The position numbers and the translations under genes are program-made. From the IMG/VR virus record IMGVR_UViG_3300030098_004828, positions 62,001 through 126,000 of that record: a stretch of 64,000 nt of DNA; one strand, 5' to 3'. Each line of letters starts with the position of its first letter. The stretch's first letter is position 1. This stretch comes from a virus. Under the pieces are notes generated by a model that worked only from the letters and a program-made list of their open reading frames with translations, had not been told where the DNA came from and did no database searches. This document shows positions 37,022 to 62,145 of the stretch, piece by piece.

Positions 37022-37142
37022 AAGGACAATGCTTACAACCATTCCCGCAGCAATATCCTCTTTTAAGATGATATGCTGCAGTCATGACTGTATTACCGTC
37101 TCTATCTTTATAGAAATATGGAGTAAATTTACTTAACTTCAC
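36981..37142 (-). CDS. DUF5522-like Cys-rich small protein
   Basis: The 53-residue product starts with GTG at 37142, inside the last codons of the ribonucleotide reductase gene (14-nt overlap). It contains YHLKRGYCCGNGCKHCPF, the hallmark of the short DUF5522 family common in Bacteroidota (AYHLKRGYCCG.GC.HCPY). Four cysteines in CC-x3-C-x2-C could bind a metal or Fe-S cluster; the family function is unknown to me. The GTG start is chosen because it is the first start in the open frame and gives translational coupling; an ATG 14 codons later is the alternative. The overlap with the reductase suggests co-transcription and perhaps a link to nucleotide metabolism. Confidence 0.7.
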   Translation of the reverse strand: MKLSKFTPYFYKDRDGNTVMTAAYHLKRGYCCGNGCKHCPFKQKERPDQHQQT

Positions 37143-38988
37143 AAGCTCCACCAGCACACGCTAGCTCTCCAGTTAAATTAGTTTCATCATTCTCTTCAGT
37201 GATCTTAGATAGATCAATATCCATTAATGATTTAACCATTTCATTATACTTCTTTTTAGTAATGTCTTCAAATGGAGCCTGAGTATAAGTACCACCATCA
37301 TATGGAAGCACAGCAAGACCATTATAATGATCTCTGTTTTTCCACATCCAGTCACCAGCTAATTCCCAGTCTTCATCCTTTAAGCTAATTGTAGCAGAAA
37401 CATTATGAGTATTAGATCCAGATCTATGCCCAGTCTTTACCCATTCTGTAGCTACCTTCTTTACTCTTTCAAGTAATTGGAAAGCAGATTCAGTTCTTAA
37501 GATAGAGCCTTCCGGAGCCTTTTGGGGTATACTTATAACTGCTGTATCATGGCCACGGAAGACACAATCTTCTACTAGATCAGGATGATTCTTAGCAAGA
37601 TACCCATATATAGCCTCATTCTTACCTACACGTATTCTTCTTATATAGTAATCATTATGCCATGCATGAATACCAGAACTAGTTCCTAATGTTAATGATG
37701 TTGTACCAGCAGGTTTTACTGTTGTTGTTCTAGCAGCCTTTTTGATACCAATTAATTTAGCAATTCTAGCATTCTCTTTTTTTACTACTTTAGCAGCTGC
37801 TTCCATATCATAACCAAGTATTTTACCAGATCCTATACCAGTCATAGATACACCAATCAATGCATCTTTTTCTGTAGTCTCTTGCCATACTGGTCTGAGA
37901 TAGTGGAAGTTAGTGTATCCTGCTTGAAGTGTTCCTATAAATGTAGCAGCTTTGACTCTTAGCTCAAGATCTTCTTGAGAATCAATATTACTTACATTAA
38001 CTTCACATAAATTGCAGAATTGAAAAGGACGTAGAGCAATCTCACAACATGGATTAGTTCCCCAGTCTTTATCATTATTAAAATATATACCAGGTTCACC
38101 GGCTTTACTTAACTCTACTCTTTTCCATAGATCCATAAAGAAAGACTTAGTTATCTTATGTCTCATAAGAACAGCAGAATTGTTAGCTCTACCACGTTGT
38201 GGATTTAATTCCCACCAAGCACCAGCTTTACAAGCAATCATTTCATCATCATCAGCACTAAATAGACTGATAAGAGCAGCACGTCTAATACCACCAGCTA
38301 ATACAGCATCTGCTATGTAACATATAATATCATGTGCTTCAAGTGTACTAAGTGAATCACCATCTTCTTTATTCTCAAGAATACCAGTGATTTTAAGTAT
38401 ACATTCTTTTAATGGTTGTGGTCCAGGAGCTTTACCACCAGAAGTTACTAATCTTGCTCCTTTAGGTCTAATATCTGAATAGTCAAATACTATACGTGAA
38501 CTCTTACCATTTAAATATGATTTCATTAACATCTTAATAGCATCTGCCCATCCTTCTATAGAGTCACCAATTAAGTAACGTCTTGTTCTTTTTTTATATG
38601 GTTTATTAATCAATGGTAATTTATCTACATGATGTTGTTGTACTGAATATCCCACACCTGTTCCACCAAGTAATAAGAACATGGTTTCACTAAAAGCATC
38701 TATATGATCTATAGGAAGGTATGCACAATTATATATTCTATTAGGACTAATTTCAATTGGTTTACCACCAAACTGCATAGATCTCATAGATGGCAAAACC
38801 TTTTTGTCAAATACATATTCATATGTACCTCTTATATCATCCTCAAGTTCAGGATATGTTTTAATATGCATATTCATATTTCTAGTGACCAATTCTTTCC
38901 AGGTCTCTCTTCTTTTTAATTCAGGATTATACCGTGCATATTTCATATGGACAGTAATATCACTAAGAATTTTGTTATTCAATTCCAT
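37129..38988 (-). CDS. nrdJ: Adenosylcobalamin-dependent (class II) monomeric ribonucleotide reductase
   Basis: The product should reduce ribonucleoside triphosphates to deoxyribonucleotides using coenzyme B12. All five cysteines of the Lactobacillus-type monomeric enzyme are present: C88 (NRIYNCAYLP), radical C314 and partner E316 (NPCCEIALR), C325 (FQFCNLCE), and the C-terminal redox pair C611-x4-C616 (CAGGAC). The glycine loop LLLGGTGVGYSVQ and the TVKPAGTTSLTLG segment are also recognisable. At 619 residues it is shorter than the cellular monomeric enzyme (about 740), so some regulatory regions may be reduced. It lies on the minus strand inside the rightward late region, convergent to the giant genes. 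Its promoter region shares the 171-nt divergent gap with the gene at 39160. Being B12-dependent, it needs host cobalamin or its import. Confidence 0.93.
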   Translation of the reverse strand: MELNNKILSDITVHMKYARYNPELKRRETWKELVTRNMNMHIKTYPELEDDIRGTYEYVFDKKVLPSMRSMQFGGKPIEISPNRIYNCAYLPIDHIDAFSETMFLLLGGTGVGYSVQQHHVDKLPLINKPYKKRTRRYLIGDSIEGWADAIKMLMKSYLNGKSSRIVFDYSDIRPKGARLVTSGGKAPGPQPLKECILKITGILENKEDGDSLSTLEAHDIICYIADAVLAGGIRRAALISLFSADDDEMIACKAGAWWELNPQRGRANNSAVLMRHKITKSFFMDLWKRVELSKAGEPGIYFNNDKDWGTNPCCEIALRPFQFCNLCEVNVSNIDSQEDLELRVKAATFIGTLQAGYTNFHYLRPVWQETTEKDALIGVSMTGIGSGKILGYDMEAAAKVVKKENARIAKLIGIKKAARTTTVKPAGTTSLTLGTSSGIHAWHNDYYIRRIRVGKNEAIYGYLAKNHPDLVEDCVFRGHDTAVISIPQKAPEGSILRTESAFQLLERVKKVATEWVKTGHRSGSNTHNVSATISLKDEDWELAGDWMWKNRDHYNGLAVLPYDGGTYTQAPFEDITKKKYNEMVKSLMDIDLSKITEENDETNLTGELACAGGACEVK

Positions 38989-40973: not shown

Positions 40974-41258
40974 ATGGCAAAAGAATTAAACGAGGACACA
41001 GGTTTTAAGGTTAGTATTAAAACATTAATAGGTATAGGAGTTGCAATGGCTACTGTTATTGGTATGTGGTTTGCTCTTCAAGCAGATATTGAAGAAGCTA
41101 AAATGCTTCCAGAACCTCCTGCACCAGATGTAACACGAATGGAGTTTGATATGAAGGATAAAAATATACGTCTCACTATTGAGAATACTCAGGATGATGT
41201 GACAGAGATCAAAGAAGATCTAAGACGTATAGAGGACAAAATTGATGATTTAAAATGA
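40974..41258 (+). CDS. Small membrane protein with C-terminal coiled coil
   Basis: The 94-residue product has a membrane segment (IKTLIGIGVAMATVIGMWFAL) and a charged helical tail (DDVTEIKEDLRRIEDKIDDL). It resembles small phage membrane proteins annotated as holin-like or lysis-associated, but that is inference from layout only. Its TGA stop overlaps the ATG of the next gene (ATGA), so translation is coupled to the exported thioredoxin-like protein. Confidence 0.65.
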   Translation: MAKELNEDTGFKVSIKTLIGIGVAMATVIGMWFALQADIEEAKMLPEPPAPDVTRMEFDMKDKNIRLTIENTQDDVTEIKEDLRRIEDKIDDLK

Positions 41259-41578
41259 AAAACTTAATAATTACCTTTTTTCTATTTGTAGGTATAACAA
41301 ATGCACAAATAGAAGTTATTCAATATAATGCGGGATGGAACGCTTCTAATGATGTAGAATGGTGTGAAGATCTTAATGATTGTGATACAGACTATGTTGA
41401 TATAATGGAAAAACCTAAACAACAAGAAAAATATAATATAGCAGTTGTACCAACTATCATTATATTTGATGATGGAGAGGAAATTAAAAGATATCAAGCA
41501 GATATTTCTTTTAGCATCAAAGCAACAAGAGAAGAGGTACAAGAATTTATAGATGAACAAATTGCAAATAAATTTTAA
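41255..41578 (+). CDS. Exported thioredoxin-fold protein without CxxC
   Basis: The 107-residue product has a signal peptide (MKNLIITFFLFVGITNA, cleavage expected before Q18). A thioredoxin-like fold follows, with the cis-proline region IAVVPTIIIFDDGEEIKRY. The place of the CGPC active site reads GWNASND, so the redox CxxC is absent; two cysteines occur later as C-x5-C (WCEDLNDC). The protein should be periplasmic or surface-exposed. The start overlaps the previous stop by 4 nt. It may be a structural or substrate-binding thioredoxin relative rather than a redox enzyme. First of several exported products in this region. Confidence 0.7.
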   Translation: MKNLIITFFLFVGITNAQIEVIQYNAGWNASNDVEWCEDLNDCDTDYVDIMEKPKQQEKYNIAVVPTIIIFDDGEEIKRYQADISFSIKATREEVQEFIDEQIANKF

Positions 41579-41698: not shown

Positions 41699-42073
41699 AT
41701 GGCAAACTCATTAACTCCAACATTAACGTTGAACAGTAATACTGCCCCAACTAATTCACCTCCATTGGTTTTTACAGAGACTGATGTACTTGCTACAGCT
41801 GTCCCAATTGTTGAAACATCACAGGTAAGTGTTGGCACTGTTACTGCTCATCAAATTTTGGACTCAACAACACAAACTTCTGCTACATATGTGTATCTTA
41901 AAAACGAAGATACTGTTAATTCAGTGCTTGTTAAAACAGATGCTGGGGTCACTTTTGGAAAATTACATCCTGGTGAATTTATGTTCTATTGTGCAAATGT
42001 ACAAGAAGGACTAGAAGTGATAGCATTGACTGCTGATTGCGTTGTAGAAATTGGATACTGGACTAAAGCTTAG
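41699..42073 (+). CDS. Small virion protein, paralogue of the 46534 product
   Basis: The 124-residue beta-rich product shares a conserved C-terminal half with the protein encoded at 46534: TYVYLKNEDTVNSVLVKTD..G....HPGEFMF...VQEGLEVIA..ADCVVEIGY..K versus TYVYVKNTDPTNIVVLKTD..G....GPDEFAF...KGGVGIEAQA.GDCVVEYATFKK. Such short all-beta proteins are common as decoration or tail components in marine phages. No signal peptide. The two copies flank the export cassette 42078-46335. It is preceded by a 120-nt gap that contains the small Cys-rich gene. Confidence 0.68.
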   Translation: MANSLTPTLTLNSNTAPTNSPPLVFTETDVLATAVPIVETSQVSVGTVTAHQILDSTTQTSATYVYLKNEDTVNSVLVKTDAGVTFGKLHPGEFMFYCANVQEGLEVIALTADCVVEIGYWTKA

Positions 42074-42077
42074 TAAT

Positions 42078-45000
42078 ATGCTTTTTAGGTATAGTCTTAT
42101 ATGGGTTGTGTTATTCCTGTGTTCCGCAGTGAATGCACAATCTACAGACTCTTGGATAAATATTCAATTACAAACAGATAATTATCCAGAGGAAACATCA
42201 TGGCAATTATATAATATTAGCGGTGGTGCAATTGCTGTTAGTGATTCTGTTTTAACAGAACTTACATTACATGACACTGTAGTAAATGTATTATCTGGAG
42301 ATTATATAATTTCTTTAGAAGATTCATGGGGTGATGGATTAGGTGGTTCTCAATGGGGAGGTTCTGATGGATCTTTTCTTATACAAAATGATTGTCAAGA
42401 TACTTTATTTTATGCAGAAGGTGACTTTGGTTTACAATTAATAGATACATTAACTATAGCTCCTTGTGCTCCTCCTATTTCAGGATGTATAGATGAACTT
42501 GCAACAAACTTTAATCCAGATGCTACTGTCTCAGATAATTCTTGCACTTATCCTCCTTGTGAAGGATGGGGAGAACCTTTTGTAGATCAAATATGTGATG
42601 GCGGTCAAGCACTTCTTTATTTTAATTGGGAAGCTTCAGATAATCCTAATTGTAATGTAATTCAAATAACTTATAGTGGTGAAAATACTAACTCTTATAA
42701 CTTTGATGTTAATATAGATAATGGTATATGGGGTGTTTATACCGGTAATGGTCAGATGCCTCCTAACTGGGAAGAGGAATATTCATTCCAAGTAATGTAT
42801 GCTGATAGTACTATGTCAGATACATTTGTACATACTCCATATCCATGTACACAAGGATGTACAGATAATGATGCTCCTAATTATAATCCATGGGCTACAG
42901 TAGATGATGGATCATGTGGAGGTCAAGCATGTGATGCGGGATACACTTCTATAACAATAGATATAACTTTAGATAATTGGCCAGGTGAAACAGGATGGTC
43001 ATTAATTAGTGGTGGTGTAATAGATGAACATATTGATGGGGACTATGACTATCAAGATATAGGTCAAACATTTTCATACTCTTATTGTGTAATGGAAGCT
43101 GGATTTGAATTTATTGTATCTGATACATATGGTGATGGTTTAGCTGGTTCAACTACAGGTGGAAGTTTAGATGGAGATATTCTTATTAGAGGTTGTAATG
43201 GAGATACAATAACTCAATTATCTTCTGGAACTTGGTTAAATGCAGCACAAGAAAATGTTGGTGTTGGTTTTGGTAGTGTAGCTTATTCAGGATGGCAAGA
43301 ACCTATTATATGTGAGACAGATGATGTTGCAGGATGTACTGATCCAACATATCAAGAATTTAATCCAGAAGCTGTTATAGATGATGGTTCATGTGTTATA
43401 GAGCATATATATGGTTGTATAAATGAAAATGCTTTTAACTATGATGAGAACGCAACAGCAATGGATATATATCCTAATTGTAATTATGAACTATGGATAG
43501 GAGATGCAGCTGCTGATGGTTGGGGTAATTCATTCTTAGGAGTTGTACAAGGAGATAATCAATGGTCATTCACAATGGGTCCAGGAGAATATGAACAAAC
43601 TTTTCCTATTTGGTTAGAAACAGATGAACCTGTGAAAATATTTTACTTTGAAGTAGGTGGAGCACAAACTCCTCCAGAAGAAGTGGCTTTTCAAACATTA
43701 CATAATTCATTTAAATTAACAAATGATAACGGAACTGTATTATTATATGAAGGATGGAATCCTTTTGCAGACAATGGTCAAGGTGCACTTCAGCCTTTTG
43801 AGCCTCCATTCTTTCAAACATATAATGCAATGCCTTTCTGTGGTACTCTTTGTATTCCTACAGTAGAAGGTTGTTTAGATTCTACAGCACTGAACTATAA
43901 TGAAGAGGCTAATACAGATGACGGTAGTTGTATAGAGATTATAGAAGGTTGTACTAATGAATTAGCTTTCAATTATGATGAAGAAGCTAACTATGATGAT
44001 GGGTCATGTGAAGCCGTAATTGTTGGTTGTATGGATTCAATAGCATGGAATTATAATGAGGATGCTAACACAGATGGTGGTGATTGTATATATTTAGGTT
44101 GCACTGATTCTTCAGCATGCAACTTCAATCCAAATGCTAATGCAGACAGTGGAGGATGCACTTATCCTGATCAATACTATAATTGTAATGATGTATGTAT
44201 AAATGATGCTGACTCAGATGGAGTATGTGATGAGCTTGAAATACTAGGATGTACTAGTATAGCTGCCATTAACTATAACCCGGAAGCAACTGATGATGAT
44301 GGTAGTTGTGTTGGTGTAGTATACGGTTGTACAGATCCCACTGCTTTTAATTATGACGCTACAGCTAATACAGACAATGGTTCATGTGTACCTGTAATAT
44401 ACGGATGTATAGATGACACAGCATATAATTATGACCCAGCTGCCAATACAGACAATGGAACTTGTATAGAATATGTATATGGTTGTACTGATACAACAGC
44501 TCTTAACTTTGATCCTTTAGCAAATACATTAGACAATTCATGTTGTTATCTTGGAGGATGTACTGATACCACTGCACTAAATTATGATTCAGATGCTTGT
44601 TTTGATGATGGCAGTTGTGTAGTTATAATAGAAGGATGTGCTGATCCTAATGCATATAACTATGATCCGCTAGTTAACTTACCAGATAACAGTACATGTC
44701 TTTATGATGCTGGTTGTTATGGTGGACCAGGTCAACCTTATTGGTTAAATGATCCTTGTTATGCTTGGGTTATAGATGTAGACAGTTATTGTTGTACTTC
44801 TATATGGGATGAAACCTGTCAGGCCATGTATAACTATTGTGAAGATGGTTGGCCTGTAGATCTAAATGAACTATCAGGTAGTGATATAGTTGTTTATCCT
44901 AATCCTACAGCAAACATTTTTAATATAGAAACAAGATTAGATGTTAATGTAGAACTATATAACATGATAGGTGAACTTATAAATACAGATAATATTAAAA

Positions 45001-45092
45001 GAATAGATTTATCAGATAAACCGGATGGTGTTTATAATCTCATTATTACATATGATAAAATAAGAATAACTAAGAAAATAATTAAATTATGA
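42078..45092 (+). CDS. Secreted 14-repeat Cys protein with type IX secretion sorting domain
   Basis: The start is placed at 42078 (MLFRYSLIWVVLFLCSAVNA, a clear signal peptide) rather than 42051, which overlaps the previous gene. The mature protein has three domains with the pattern DNYPEETSW...DSWGDGLGG, which I know from secreted Bacteroidota proteins. Fourteen copies of a Cys-bounded repeat of about 25 residues follow (GCTDPTAFNYDATANTDNGSC and variants), with an Asp-rich DADSDGVCDE segment between copies 8 and 9. The last 70 residues form a T9SS type A sorting domain: VYPNPTANIFNIE...VELYNMIGELI...DLSDKPDGVYNLII...KKIIKL. The product should cross the inner membrane by Sec and the outer membrane by the host type IX system, and end on the cell surface or in the medium. 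The Asp-rich repeats could bind calcium. The stop overlaps the next ATG by 4 nt. Confidence 0.88.
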   Translation: MLFRYSLIWVVLFLCSAVNAQSTDSWINIQLQTDNYPEETSWQLYNISGGAIAVSDSVLTELTLHDTVVNVLSGDYIISLEDSWGDGLGGSQWGGSDGSFLIQNDCQDTLFYAEGDFGLQLIDTLTIAPCAPPISGCIDELATNFNPDATVSDNSCTYPPCEGWGEPFVDQICDGGQALLYFNWEASDNPNCNVIQITYSGENTNSYNFDVNIDNGIWGVYTGNGQMPPNWEEEYSFQVMYADSTMSDTFVHTPYPCTQGCTDNDAPNYNPWATVDDGSCGGQACDAGYTSITIDITLDNWPGETGWSLISGGVIDEHIDGDYDYQDIGQTFSYSYCVMEAGFEFIVSDTYGDGLAGSTTGGSLDGDILIRGCNGDTITQLSSGTWLNAAQENVGVGFGSVAYSGWQEPIICETDDVAGCTDPTYQEFNPEAVIDDGSCVIEHIYGCINENAFNYDENATAMDIYPNCNYELWIGDAAADGWGNSFLGVVQGDNQWSFTMGPGEYEQTFPIWLETDEPVKIFYFEVGGAQTPPEEVAFQTLHNSFKLTNDNGTVLLYEGWNPFADNGQGALQPFEPPFFQTYNAMPFCGTLCIPTVEGCLDSTALNYNEEANTDDGSCIEIIEGCTNELAFNYDEEANYDDGSCEAVIVGCMDSIAWNYNEDANTDGGDCIYLGCTDSSACNFNPNANADSGGCTYPDQYYNCNDVCINDADSDGVCDELEILGCTSIAAINYNPEATDDDGSCVGVVYGCTDPTAFNYDATANTDNGSCVPVIYGCIDDTAYNYDPAANTDNGTCIEYVYGCTDTTALNFDPLANTLDNSCCYLGGCTDTTALNYDSDACFDDGSCVVIIEGCADPNAYNYDPLVNLPDNSTCLYDAGCYGGPGQPYWLNDPCYAWVIDVDSYCCTSIWDETCQAMYNYCEDGWPVDLNELSGSDIVVYPNPTANIFNIETRLDVNVELYNMIGELINTDNIKRIDLSDKPDGVYNLIITYDKIRITKKIIKL
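42483..44699 (+). repeat. Region of 14 Cys-bounded protein repeats
   Basis: Coding repeats with the form GC-x-D-x2-A-x-N-[YF]-x3-A-x3-D-[DN]-G-[ST]-C occur 14 times. Copies 1-4 are interspersed with WGDG-type domains. Copies 5-14 run nearly in tandem from about 43869, joined by short linkers such as IIE, VIY or YVY. DNA copies are diverged, so this is old amplification rather than a recent slippage array. Confidence 0.85.
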
Positions 45093-45280
45093 AATATTTA
45101 GCAGCATTATGGGTTTTAGTTATTGTAGGTTGTGGATTATTTAATCCTGCAAAATACAATCCTAATCCCACACCAGTAGTAAAAGACTGTTGTCCTAAAG
45201 ATTCAATTAGAGTTGATACAATAAGATTAACAAACGGAGTAGATCATATTATAATGTTAGATACAGTTAAAGTAAAATGA
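45089..45280 (+). CDS. Small lipoprotein
   Basis: The 63-residue product has a lipoprotein signal (MKYLAALWVLVIVGC, lipobox VIVG-C15). The mature part is short with PNPTPVVKDCCPKDS and a beta-like tail (IRVDTIRLTNGVDHIIMLD). It should be lipid-anchored in the outer membrane or periplasm. Both ends overlap neighbours by 4 nt, so it is translated together with the T9SS-sorted protein and the barrel-like protein. It may help anchor or expose its neighbours; it may also be a small rz1-like lysis factor, although no separate rz partner is seen. Confidence 0.72.
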   Translation: MKYLAALWVLVIVGCGLFNPAKYNPNPTPVVKDCCPKDSIRVDTIRLTNGVDHIIMLDTVKVK

Positions 45281-46335
45281 GAATAATTTTGTCCATATTA
45301 TTACTTTTATCATTTACGATAAATGCACAAGAAGAAAGTAAGTTTAAAAAAGAACTTAAAAAGACTTTCAAGTTTTCTACATTCTATGCTGCAGTAAATG
45401 GTGGTACTTCTATTTCAGATCAGAATACATATTCTATATTAGATGGACTTCAAACCGATGTAATAGAAACCCCATTTGACTATGCCTTAACCCTAGGTAT
45501 AAGAAAGATACAAAGATTTGGTTACGAAAATAAAGCTAAAAGCTTTAAAGATGGTACAGAATCTTCTTATTCTGATGCCGCTACTATTGGACGAACTAAA
45601 GGTTTTGAGTTTTTATTTGAGATGGACTACCAAAGAAAGTTTGGTGATACATACATAGACCAGAACCACTTTCTACGATACCTAGCAGATAAATGGGTTG
45701 TTAAGGTAGAGTATCTACAGGATGGCTTTGCTGATGTAGAGTACATGGAAGCATCACAACGATATAGACAAAAGATAGGTAAGAGACTTTCCCTTACTGC
45801 AGGGACAGCACAGAGGATCTCCGAGCCTTATGGTTTTGATCCATTAGCACAATGGGTGTTATCCAACGGAAACCTACACTACACAAACCTTGCTTTAGAA
45901 GAAGGGTACACAATTGGCTTTGCACCAACAGGAATAGAGTATATAGACCCTAATGGAGCAGTCGTGGCTACAAGTACTGAAGTTTGGGAAGAGGTGGTGA
46001 TTCCACAAATGCTTGATGACTATGTTAAATCTAGTAAAGACGCATTACCTGTGCAATGGTGTCACTCTTTGGTAATTGGGTTTGACTACTATTATTATAA
46101 AAAGGATATTTGGTTACACTCCTGGGGCAACATCCTTCCTTATCATTTAAATACAGGAGGAGACTATTCATATCATAATTTTAATGGAGGTAATTGGATA
46201 GACTATTCAGCCGGTTTAATATTTGGATATAAGATCAATAAGAACCTTGGTGTCTTTATTGAAGGTAAATATAACAAATACTGGAATAGGGACTGGCATG
46301 ATTTCAAGTTTGGAATAAACTACATCATACTTTAA
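45277..46335 (+). CDS. Exported outer-membrane-type protein
   Basis: The 352-residue product has a signal peptide (MRIILSILLLLSFTINAQ). It continues with alternating aromatic and polar strands, ending in GVFIEGKYNKYWNRDWHDFKFGINYIIL, which looks like final strands of an outer-membrane beta barrel. Motifs include HSLVIGFDYYYYKKDIWLHSWG and NGGNWIDYSAGLIFGYKI. No T9SS sorting domain. Codon use differs from the neighbours: more GC-ending and CTA/ACC/GGC codons, noticeably less AT-rich, which suggests later acquisition. It overlaps the lipoprotein gene by 4 nt. The family is not recognised with certainty; a role at the host surface, such as exclusion of other phages, is conjecture. Confidence 0.72.
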   Translation: MRIILSILLLLSFTINAQEESKFKKELKKTFKFSTFYAAVNGGTSISDQNTYSILDGLQTDVIETPFDYALTLGIRKIQRFGYENKAKSFKDGTESSYSDAATIGRTKGFEFLFEMDYQRKFGDTYIDQNHFLRYLADKWVVKVEYLQDGFADVEYMEASQRYRQKIGKRLSLTAGTAQRISEPYGFDPLAQWVLSNGNLHYTNLALEEGYTIGFAPTGIEYIDPNGAVVATSTEVWEEVVIPQMLDDYVKSSKDALPVQWCHSLVIGFDYYYYKKDIWLHSWGNILPYHLNTGGDYSYHNFNGGNWIDYSAGLIFGYKINKNLGVFIEGKYNKYWNRDWHDFKFGINYIIL

Positions 46336-46384: not shown

Positions 46385-46534
46385 ATGAACTGGATAAACA
46401 GTTGGCGTGAAGGTAACAAGAAAAATATTGTAGACTTCACATTTAGATTTGGGTATTTTACCCTATTAGAATTAAATTGGAACCCTGGCAAAAGCTTTAG
46501 GTTTATAATATTAAATTTTGGATTTGAAATATAA
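46385..46534 (+). CDS. Small hypothetical protein (49 residues)
   Basis: An ATG downstream of the TTTGTATATTAT box opens 49 codons (MNWINSWREGNKKNIVDFTF...) rich in Trp, Phe and Asn with alternating beta-like pattern (FRFGYFTLLELNWNPGKSFRF). The stop overlaps the next ATG by 1 nt (TAATG), which supports a real gene. No signal peptide; not recognised. Confidence 0.6.
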   Translation: MNWINSWREGNKKNIVDFTFRFGYFTLLELNWNPGKSFRFIILNFGFEI

Positions 46535-46908
46535 TGGCAACAAAAGTACTAAATCTGAGTCTTAAATTATCTATAGATGGTAATTTTAATGGTTTATTTA
46601 ACCTAAATACTACAGAGGATAGTACTGTTGGTTTTGATGACACAACTGCCGCAAGTCAAACTACCACAATAACAACAGGTGGAGCAACAGTAATTGTAGC
46701 TTCTGGAGTTAGTGATATAACGTATGTATATGTAAAAAACACTGATCCTACTAATATTGTAGTATTAAAAACTGATTCTGGTACAGCTTATGCAGATGTT
46801 GGACCAGATGAATTTGCGTTTATACCTGTAAAAGGTGGTGTAGGAATAGAAGCTCAAGCAGCAGGTGGTGACTGTGTAGTTGAATATGCAACATTTAAAA
46901 AAGTTTAA
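46534..46908 (+). CDS. Small virion protein, paralogue of the 41699 product
   Basis: The 124-residue product has the same length as the 41699 product and shares its C-terminal half (ITYVYVKNTDPTNIVVLKTD, then GPDEFAFIPVKGGVGIEAQA and CVVEYATFKK). The N-terminal half differs, which suggests domain swapping or rapid divergence in the exposed part. It is likely a beta-rich decoration or tail protein. It follows the 49-residue gene with a 1-nt overlap and precedes the CxxCxxC gene by 4 nt. Confidence 0.68.
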   Translation: MATKVLNLSLKLSIDGNFNGLFNLNTTEDSTVGFDDTTAASQTTTITTGGATVIVASGVSDITYVYVKNTDPTNIVVLKTDSGTAYADVGPDEFAFIPVKGGVGIEAQAAGGDCVVEYATFKKV

Positions 46909-48005: not shown

Positions 48006-48401
48006 ATGAGTATACTAAAAAAGATTTTTTCAGGCGCAGGAAGTCAGCTTGTAGAATCAGTTGGTGGTGTAATAGATAATTTAGTAACAACAGATGATGA
48101 AAAGAAAGAAGCTAAGAGGAAGCTCAAGGAACTTATCTTAAATCATGAAGCTCAAATGGAAAAGAACATTACTGACCGTTGGACGGCAGATATGAATTCT
48201 GATTCCTGGTTAAGTAAGAATGTAAGACCTATGGTTCTTATATTTTTAATTGTATGCACCATGCTTTTAATATTTATTGATGCAGGCGCATTAAGTTTTG
48301 AAGTAGAAGAAAAATGGACAGATTTACTTCAGTTAGTACTAATTACAGTAATTGGTGCTTATTTTGGTGGAAGAACTGCAGAAAAATTTAAAAAGAAATA
48401 G
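48006..48401 (+). CDS. Holin, three-TM (GTA holin-like) family
   Basis: The 131-residue product has an amphipathic N-terminus, a charged helix (KEAKRKLKELILNHEAQ), then DSWLSKNVRPMVLIFLIVCTMLLIF and a final membrane pair ending VLITVIGAYFGGRTAEKFKKK. The W-x-x-x-N-x-R-P start of the first membrane segment and the YFGGR end are typical of the PF11351-type phage holins. It should form inner-membrane lesions that time lysis. No endolysin gene is visible next to it. It is 4 nt upstream of a small basic gene. Confidence 0.8.
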   Translation: MSILKKIFSGAGSQLVESVGGVIDNLVTTDDEKKEAKRKLKELILNHEAQMEKNITDRWTADMNSDSWLSKNVRPMVLIFLIVCTMLLIFIDAGALSFEVEEKWTDLLQLVLITVIGAYFGGRTAEKFKKK

Positions 48402-61777: not shown

Positions 61778-62145
61778 TAAATAAATTTATCTTCGGTATT
61801 AAAGTCACAATCATAATAATAATCTTCTGTAATACGTTGTGTGTGATGAATTTTAACATCCCATGGATCTTTTGTACAATCAATTATCATTTGACCATGA
61901 CCACCATCATTATTAATCCAATCCCATTCTACATTATCACTGACCATATTATATAGTAAATCATCCCATGCATGCTCTACTTCACCGGTCATATTTACAT
62001 TAATCTTTTTTCCATCAATATCTTCAAATCTAACTTCATCTATACATCCATCATCACCACCACCATTATATTCTACTTCTATATTTGCTATATTGTGATC
62101 TTTAATCACTTGAACTGCTACATTTCTTTTTAGTTTTTTTTCCAT
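61777..62145 (-). CDS. DUF6878-like protein
   Basis: The 122-residue product shows the DUF6878 features: VEYNGGGDDGCIDEVRFEDIDG, a helix with HAWDDLLYNMV, and WDWINNDGGHGQMIIDCTKD. The family is small, acidic and of unknown function, found in plasmids and phages. Its start overlaps the end of the RusA-like gene by 44 nt, an unusually long overlap for this operon. It is followed directly by the DUF6915-like gene. Confidence 0.75.
   Translation of the reverse strand: MEKKLKRNVAVQVIKDHNIANIEVEYNGGGDDGCIDEVRFEDIDGKKINVNMTGEVEHAWDDLLYNMVSDNVEWDWINNDGGHGQMIIDCTKDPWDVKIHHTQRITEDYYYDCDFNTEDKFI

Follow-up and report, generated by a model that had tools for sequence, protein, structure and literature searches.

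Several phage products, SieA, Llp, Cor and the phage-encoded porin Lc among them, are placed in the host envelope and alter it; to our knowledge, none of these uses the type IX secretion system (T9SS) or a large host-mimicking surface protein. The T9SS itself includes an outer-membrane barrel, PorP/SprF, that is encoded beside type B cargo. Here we describe a locus in a 64,000-nucleotide stretch of viral DNA (positions 62001–126000 of IMG/VR record IMGVR_UViG_3300030098_004828; hereafter, the window) in which a 1004-residue protein with a T9SS type A C-terminal sorting domain is encoded together with a phage-specific outer-membrane barrel and two predicted envelope proteins, which we call TMCC and TRX. 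A preliminary description of window positions 42078–46335 had interpreted part of this locus as a three-gene export cassette and as a possible new kind of host-surface moron.

Two reported cases come closest. In Cryophage (Bellas et al. 2020, PMC7468147), three variable genes encode T9SS type A cargo (endoglucanase, GH39 and PA14), which the authors called a unique occurrence and for which they proposed a role in competition or superinfection exclusion. In crAss-BACON cluster 2 (de Jonge et al. 2019, PMC6949934), T9SS sorting-domain proteins with BACON passengers, encoded near head genes, were noted, and their function was left open. The locus described here resembles that of Cryophage in that the encoded proteins carry type A sorting domains and vary between phage variants, and it resembles crAss-BACON cluster 2 in that contigs of crAss-related phages encode T9SS sorting-domain proteins. 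Unlike Cryophage, however, it has one single-copy core cargo linked to barrel, TRX and TMCC genes, belongs to a large marine lineage and uses two interchangeable host tails, whereas no linked module was described for the crAss-BACON proteins of gut phages. Phage-encoded T9SS cargo is therefore known in kind, and it is the conserved four-gene form that is new; a description of the linked, conserved module was not found in the open-access literature.

A Single-Copy Cargo with a Type IX Sorting Domain

The cargo gene (42078–45092, plus strand) is defined by its open reading frame, 1004 residues long from the ATG, and by profile matches. Its frame and the two that follow (45089–45280 and 45277–46335) overlap successively by the four nucleotides ATGA, as first reported. 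The assignment of the C-terminus was borne out by profile searches: the sorting domain (44892–45083, plus strand; YPNPT ... KKIIK) matches PF18962 over residues 939–1002 with 41 bits (cut-off 27; E 2.4e-10) and TIGR04183 with 37.4 bits (cut-off 23). By inspection, the N-terminal stretch (42078–42137, plus strand) resembles a Sec signal peptide, MLFRYSLIWVVLFLCSAVNA followed by Q, with cleavage expected between NA and Q, and intact relatives of the cargo start in the same way. The protein further contains two DxxGDG-containing domains and a long region of GC-D-A-N-Y Cys-repeats (42483–44699, plus strand), with 12–13 copies of GC[TIM]DxxAxNYN..DDGSC. Directly before the sorting domain lies a PYWLNDPCYAWVIDVD.YCC...D..C...YNYC domain (PYWLNDPCYAW...YCC; 44706–44855, plus strand), which is kept in both classes of tail discussed below. 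The protein has 53 Cys and a strongly acidic composition (105 D and 56 E, 161 in all, versus 8 K and 5 R, 13 in all).

Among 49 viral records searched whole, 46 contain exactly one PF18962 match above the cut-off. The remaining three consist of one record with a sub-threshold domain (L103; TIGR04183 at 21.9 versus 23 bits) and two whose contigs end near the module (L063 and L095). The cargo is a single-copy core gene of its lineage, and the accessory status implied by the term moron does not apply to it.

A Conserved Four-Gene Module

The search for homologues in other phage genomes that the preliminary description had called for located the module in about 160 viral loci from many metagenomes, a recurrence of the arrangement far beyond chance; a few further relatives missed by blastp were recovered by profile. 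In the first 99 loci, the co-occurring families are the barrel (99), the cargo (90), TRX (84) and TMCC (82), with most absences at contig ends; no locus with sufficient flanking sequence lacks the quartet. Three gene orders occur, TMCC–TRX–cargo–barrel as in the window, cargo–barrel–TMCC–TRX and barrel–TMCC–TRX–cargo, so that the same four genes stay together through rearrangement. The conserved unit is this quartet, which starts at position 40974 and is wider than the 42078–46335 cassette. Of that cassette, the cargo and the barrel belong to the core and the lipoprotein encoded between them does not; the upstream TMCC and TRX genes take its place.

TMCC (40974–41258, plus strand) is a predicted inner-membrane protein of 94 residues with one transmembrane helix, a Pro-rich linker and an expected periplasmic coiled coil; its motifs MWFaLQADI.EAK and TRMEfDMKD are near-invariant. 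Its gene is overlapped by four nucleotides by that of TRX (41255–41578, plus strand), a putative secreted protein of 107 residues with a thioredoxin fold, assigned from weak Pfam and NCBIfam thioredoxin matches. The active-site CGPC of thioredoxin is replaced by N-x-x-N in nearly all relatives, CxxC being found in 0 of 85 and the cis-Pro being kept in all 85. Judged by these residues, TRX is redox-dead and not a redox enzyme, so that a part in forming the disulfides of the Cys-rich cargo is not obvious. The putative lipoprotein (45089–45280, plus strand; 63 residues, lipobox VIVGC) belongs to a family present in only 17 loci, those of close relatives, as against 82 for TMCC, and was rejected as an essential part of the module.

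The Phage Lineage and Its Source Record

The portal (phrog_6547) and the large terminase subunit (TerL; phrog_6681) mark the record as phage. In tblastn searches the portal matches mostly crAss-like phages at 20–34% identity, and the top-listed INPHARED match of the polymerase is the crAss-like Cellulophaga phage phi14:2 (35%). By portal and terminase homology, the module-bearing phages are relatives of crAss-like phages, some portal relatives (Lightbulbvirus and Fipvunavirus) being placed outside the order Crassvirales by the taxonomy lines of their records. The closest INPHARED portal relative is the cyanobacterial Leptolyngbya phage Lbo-JY46 (PP438436.1; 34%); other relatives infect Bacteroidota.

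The record of 245,646 bp is itself composite. In a self-comparison, positions 2–124,690 are colinear with 124,783–245,646 at 73–91% identity, and the record is for this reason two related genomes of about 121–125 kb joined head to tail and is not to be listed among jumbo phages. It is in the second of these joined genomes that the other module copy (L001, C1:225.6 kb) sits, and a true gene duplication inside a jumbo phage was ruled out on this ground. A gap of 10 N lies near position 241,754 of the record.

Switching of C-Terminal Tails

In a wider set of 90 loci with full context, 22 lack the canonical sorting domain. One of these 22 cargos (L146) runs off its contig, and the other 21 end in a short tail with the consensus (I/V)TD(I/L)LGRP...KNxLLFFIYxDGTVxKK (e.g., L119, L126, L133, L153 and L178), for which no matching Pfam or NCBIfam model was found. 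The 89 resolvable cargos thus comprise 68 with the canonical domain and 21 with the short tail, and no tail-less cargo occurs among them. In Flavobacteriales, the short tail was detected in 57 of 148 genomes, mostly of 0.8–2 Mb, in up to 47 copies each, on proteins that carry signal peptides; SprA is encoded in all 15 short-tail-bearing Flavobacteriales genomes tested for it. An hhalign comparison with the canonical domain aligned the last strands at a probability of 20%, which is weak and suggestive at most. Because of its distribution, and because it replaces the canonical domain, the short tail is probably a second, uncatalogued T9SS sorting signal.

When the tail types are mapped on a tree of 99 barrel sequences, eight changes are required, at least three of them forced by well-supported branches. 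Since the tails appear to have been switched about eight times without ever being lost, selection for export by way of the host is well supported; this switching without loss is the strongest evidence for that conclusion.

Host Likeness and Exchange of the Passenger

The repeats of the cargo are 50–60% identical to those of large proteins (1000–7500 residues) of small-genome Flavobacteriales, and these host Cys-repeat T9SS proteins end in the same two types of tail. They differ in being unlinked to a barrel, TRX and TMCC set, the barrel being absent from hosts. A single GC-D-A-N-Y repeat also occurs in a giant frame of 4226 residues in the second genome of the record (C1 about 170849, plus strand), and the passenger of some relatives (L079) contains an AMPK1_CBM-type domain.

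Comparison of the record's two genomes reveals purifying selection on the cargo (dN/dS 0.22), the barrel (0.08) and the lipoprotein (0.11), with a value of about 1.0 for the first ~100 residues of the cargo in the same pair. The passenger as a whole is also exchanged. Between L018 and L019, the barrels differ by a pN of only 0.007 and the flanks are 92–98% identical in nucleotides, and yet the passengers are different (1388 vs 994 residues); L008 and L023 are likewise otherwise near-identical phages with different passengers. The passenger is replaced wholesale while the sorting domain and the barrel stay, and replacement between near-identical flanks is what would be expected of a part that faces variable antagonists.

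A Phage-Specific Outer-Membrane Barrel

The last gene of the quartet (45277–46335, plus strand) encodes a protein of 352 residues that has a signal peptide and is predicted to form an outer-membrane beta-barrel. An AlphaFold2 model built from 95 sequences has about 12 strands and a helical insert at about residues 189–256 (pLDDT 74) and was used in preference to a poor model from 23 rows (pLDDT 53). Foldseek matches in the PDB are mostly outer-membrane barrels with low TM-scores (about 0.5 or less), and for this reason we assign no specific barrel family. The viral BFVD model A0A516LKJ4 matches the barrel over its full length (TM 0.73, 22% identity); a known phage may encode such a distant relative.

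The barrel has 29 close relatives, and profiles raise this number to at least 520 in one search and at least 580 in another, among some 600 candidates in IMG/VR viral contigs. We regard it as phage-specific because the few matches in collections of cellular genomes belong to phage contigs that ended up in metagenome-assembled genomes (MAGs) with discordant names: L110–L115 are lineage contigs in MAGs labelled Sphingobacteriales, Nitrosopelagicus (an archaeon), Flavobacteriales and Maricaulis, that is, contamination. A search of 298 Flavobacteriales genomes returned nothing apart from one binned phage contig, and with the scan of cellular contigs this ruled out a cellular origin. Neither the barrel nor PF18962 was found in the reference crAss-like phages phi14:2, phi17:2, phi4:1, FPSV-S29, crAss001, cr109_1, csAssE-Sib and Lbo-JY46; tblastn against isolate phages gave no match to the barrel and weak matches to the C-terminal domain region of the cargo, the best of them in metagenomic huge-phage records.

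Scans of the Pfam and NCBIfam libraries gave no match of the barrel to PorP/SprF or to any other T9SS-component profile, and membership of the PorP/SprF family was rejected accordingly. The two have in common that they are outer-membrane barrels encoded next to T9SS cargo; the phage barrel differs in lacking the sequence match and in accompanying cargo of type A. A metallo-beta-lactamase match (12.9 bits against a cut-off of 525) was spurious.

Proposed Role of the Module and Its Alternatives

What could be the function of such a module? We propose, with about even confidence, that it is an envelope module by which the infected cell comes to display a phage-encoded, host-mimicking protein on its exterior and has its surface remodelled, superinfection exclusion or receptor masking being the most likely purpose. 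The cargo would pass through the inner membrane by the Sec pathway and then, with the T9SS of the host, through the outer membrane, by means of a C-terminal tag apparently copied from secreted proteins of the host, and would then be anchored or released at the cell surface. The barrel, the redox-dead TRX and TMCC may act with it as an envelope-spanning set of partners, and the altered surface would keep competing phages from binding productively, or the phage's own progeny from doing so on infected cells and debris. The earlier idea that the host surface is altered is supported in this model; what we do not retain of the host-surface moron is its status as an accessory gene and its novelty in kind, given the precedents in Cryophage and crAss-BACON cluster 2.

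Several observations weigh against this proposal. Export, surface location and exclusion are all read from the sequence of an uncultured lineage, and regional dN/dS values differ from pair to pair. The CBM-like domain in some passengers could mean adhesion or polysaccharide binding, and, for a phage that is presumably lytic, the module is conserved more strictly than exclusion genes usually are. In addition, a holin lies within 2–3 kb, which makes a role in lysis possible.

It is conceivable, if unlikely, that the quartet, in some phages with the spanin-like lipoprotein, serves lysis or egress by disrupting or bridging the envelope late in infection, the cargo and the barrel opening the outer membrane or detaching progeny. 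We keep this alternative because of the holin, which is encoded downstream of the module, and because TMCC has a topology like that of an i-spanin; the lipoprotein of 63 residues is of o-spanin size, holin-like families lie near the module in many relatives, and the module is co-directional with structural genes. The same lipoprotein is not conserved, however (17 loci, versus 82 for TMCC), spanins need no host-mimicking cargo of 600–1400 residues, and neither passenger exchange nor the divergence of the N-terminus would be expected of a lysis effector. Somewhat more doubtful is a dedicated secretion pair, in which the barrel would be a cargo-specific, PorP/SprF-like accessory of the T9SS and the purpose of the cargo (adhesion, aggregation or enzyme scaffold) would be secondary: its fold and its constant position near the cargo, most often as the next gene, fit this role, whereas the lack of an NCBIfam or Pfam match to a T9SS component, the type A rather than type B domain of the cargo, and the constancy of the barrel across changes of tail type do not.

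The cargo might also be an extracellular adhesin that decorates released virions, or that aggregates infected cells or attaches them to particles. The repeat in the giant frame of the second genome, the CBM-like domain of L079 and the cargo's N-terminal domain, its most divergent part, are compatible with this explanation, which we nevertheless consider improbable in view of the Sec and T9SS signals of the cargo, virion assembly being cytoplasmic. Finally, a chimeric host insert or an assembly artefact, raised as a concern in the preliminary description, might be suspected in a record that is itself an artefactual join of two genomes and for a passenger that resembles host proteins. The barrel is absent from host genomes, and the recurrence of the module in independent phage contigs, with about 160 loci known, refutes this explanation, to which we attach next to no probability.

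If surface remodelling by an exported protein is indeed the function, an abundant, uncultured marine crAss-like lineage would depend on hijacking the T9SS of its host, the module would represent a new, T9SS-dependent form of surface conversion, and the cargo would track the host's repertoire of sorting tags by tail swaps; here too, we judge the chances to be balanced. Known so far from scattered reports, phage use of the T9SS would become a conserved feature of a group of marine phages that is very common, and the fixed presence of the module in this group suggests that infected cells are routinely given a repainted surface. By the prediction of the model, only T9SS-positive cells can serve these phages as hosts, and the defined set of four genes is open to testing in a laboratory Flavobacterium. 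The analysis also points to the second, uncatalogued C-terminal tail, which is abundant in small-genome marine Flavobacteriales.

Neighboring Genes

The holin (48006–48401, plus strand; phrog_3427, E 1.6e-31) forms part of the nearby late-gene context. A ribonucleotide reductase gene (phrog_367; 37129–38988) lies on the minus strand, opposite to the surrounding late genes. The module is flanked by members of a multi-copy family of proteins of about 124 residues (41699–42073 and 46534–46908), for which weak matches to ThiC were judged spurious; the family comprises 88 genes in 36 loci, often in tandem.

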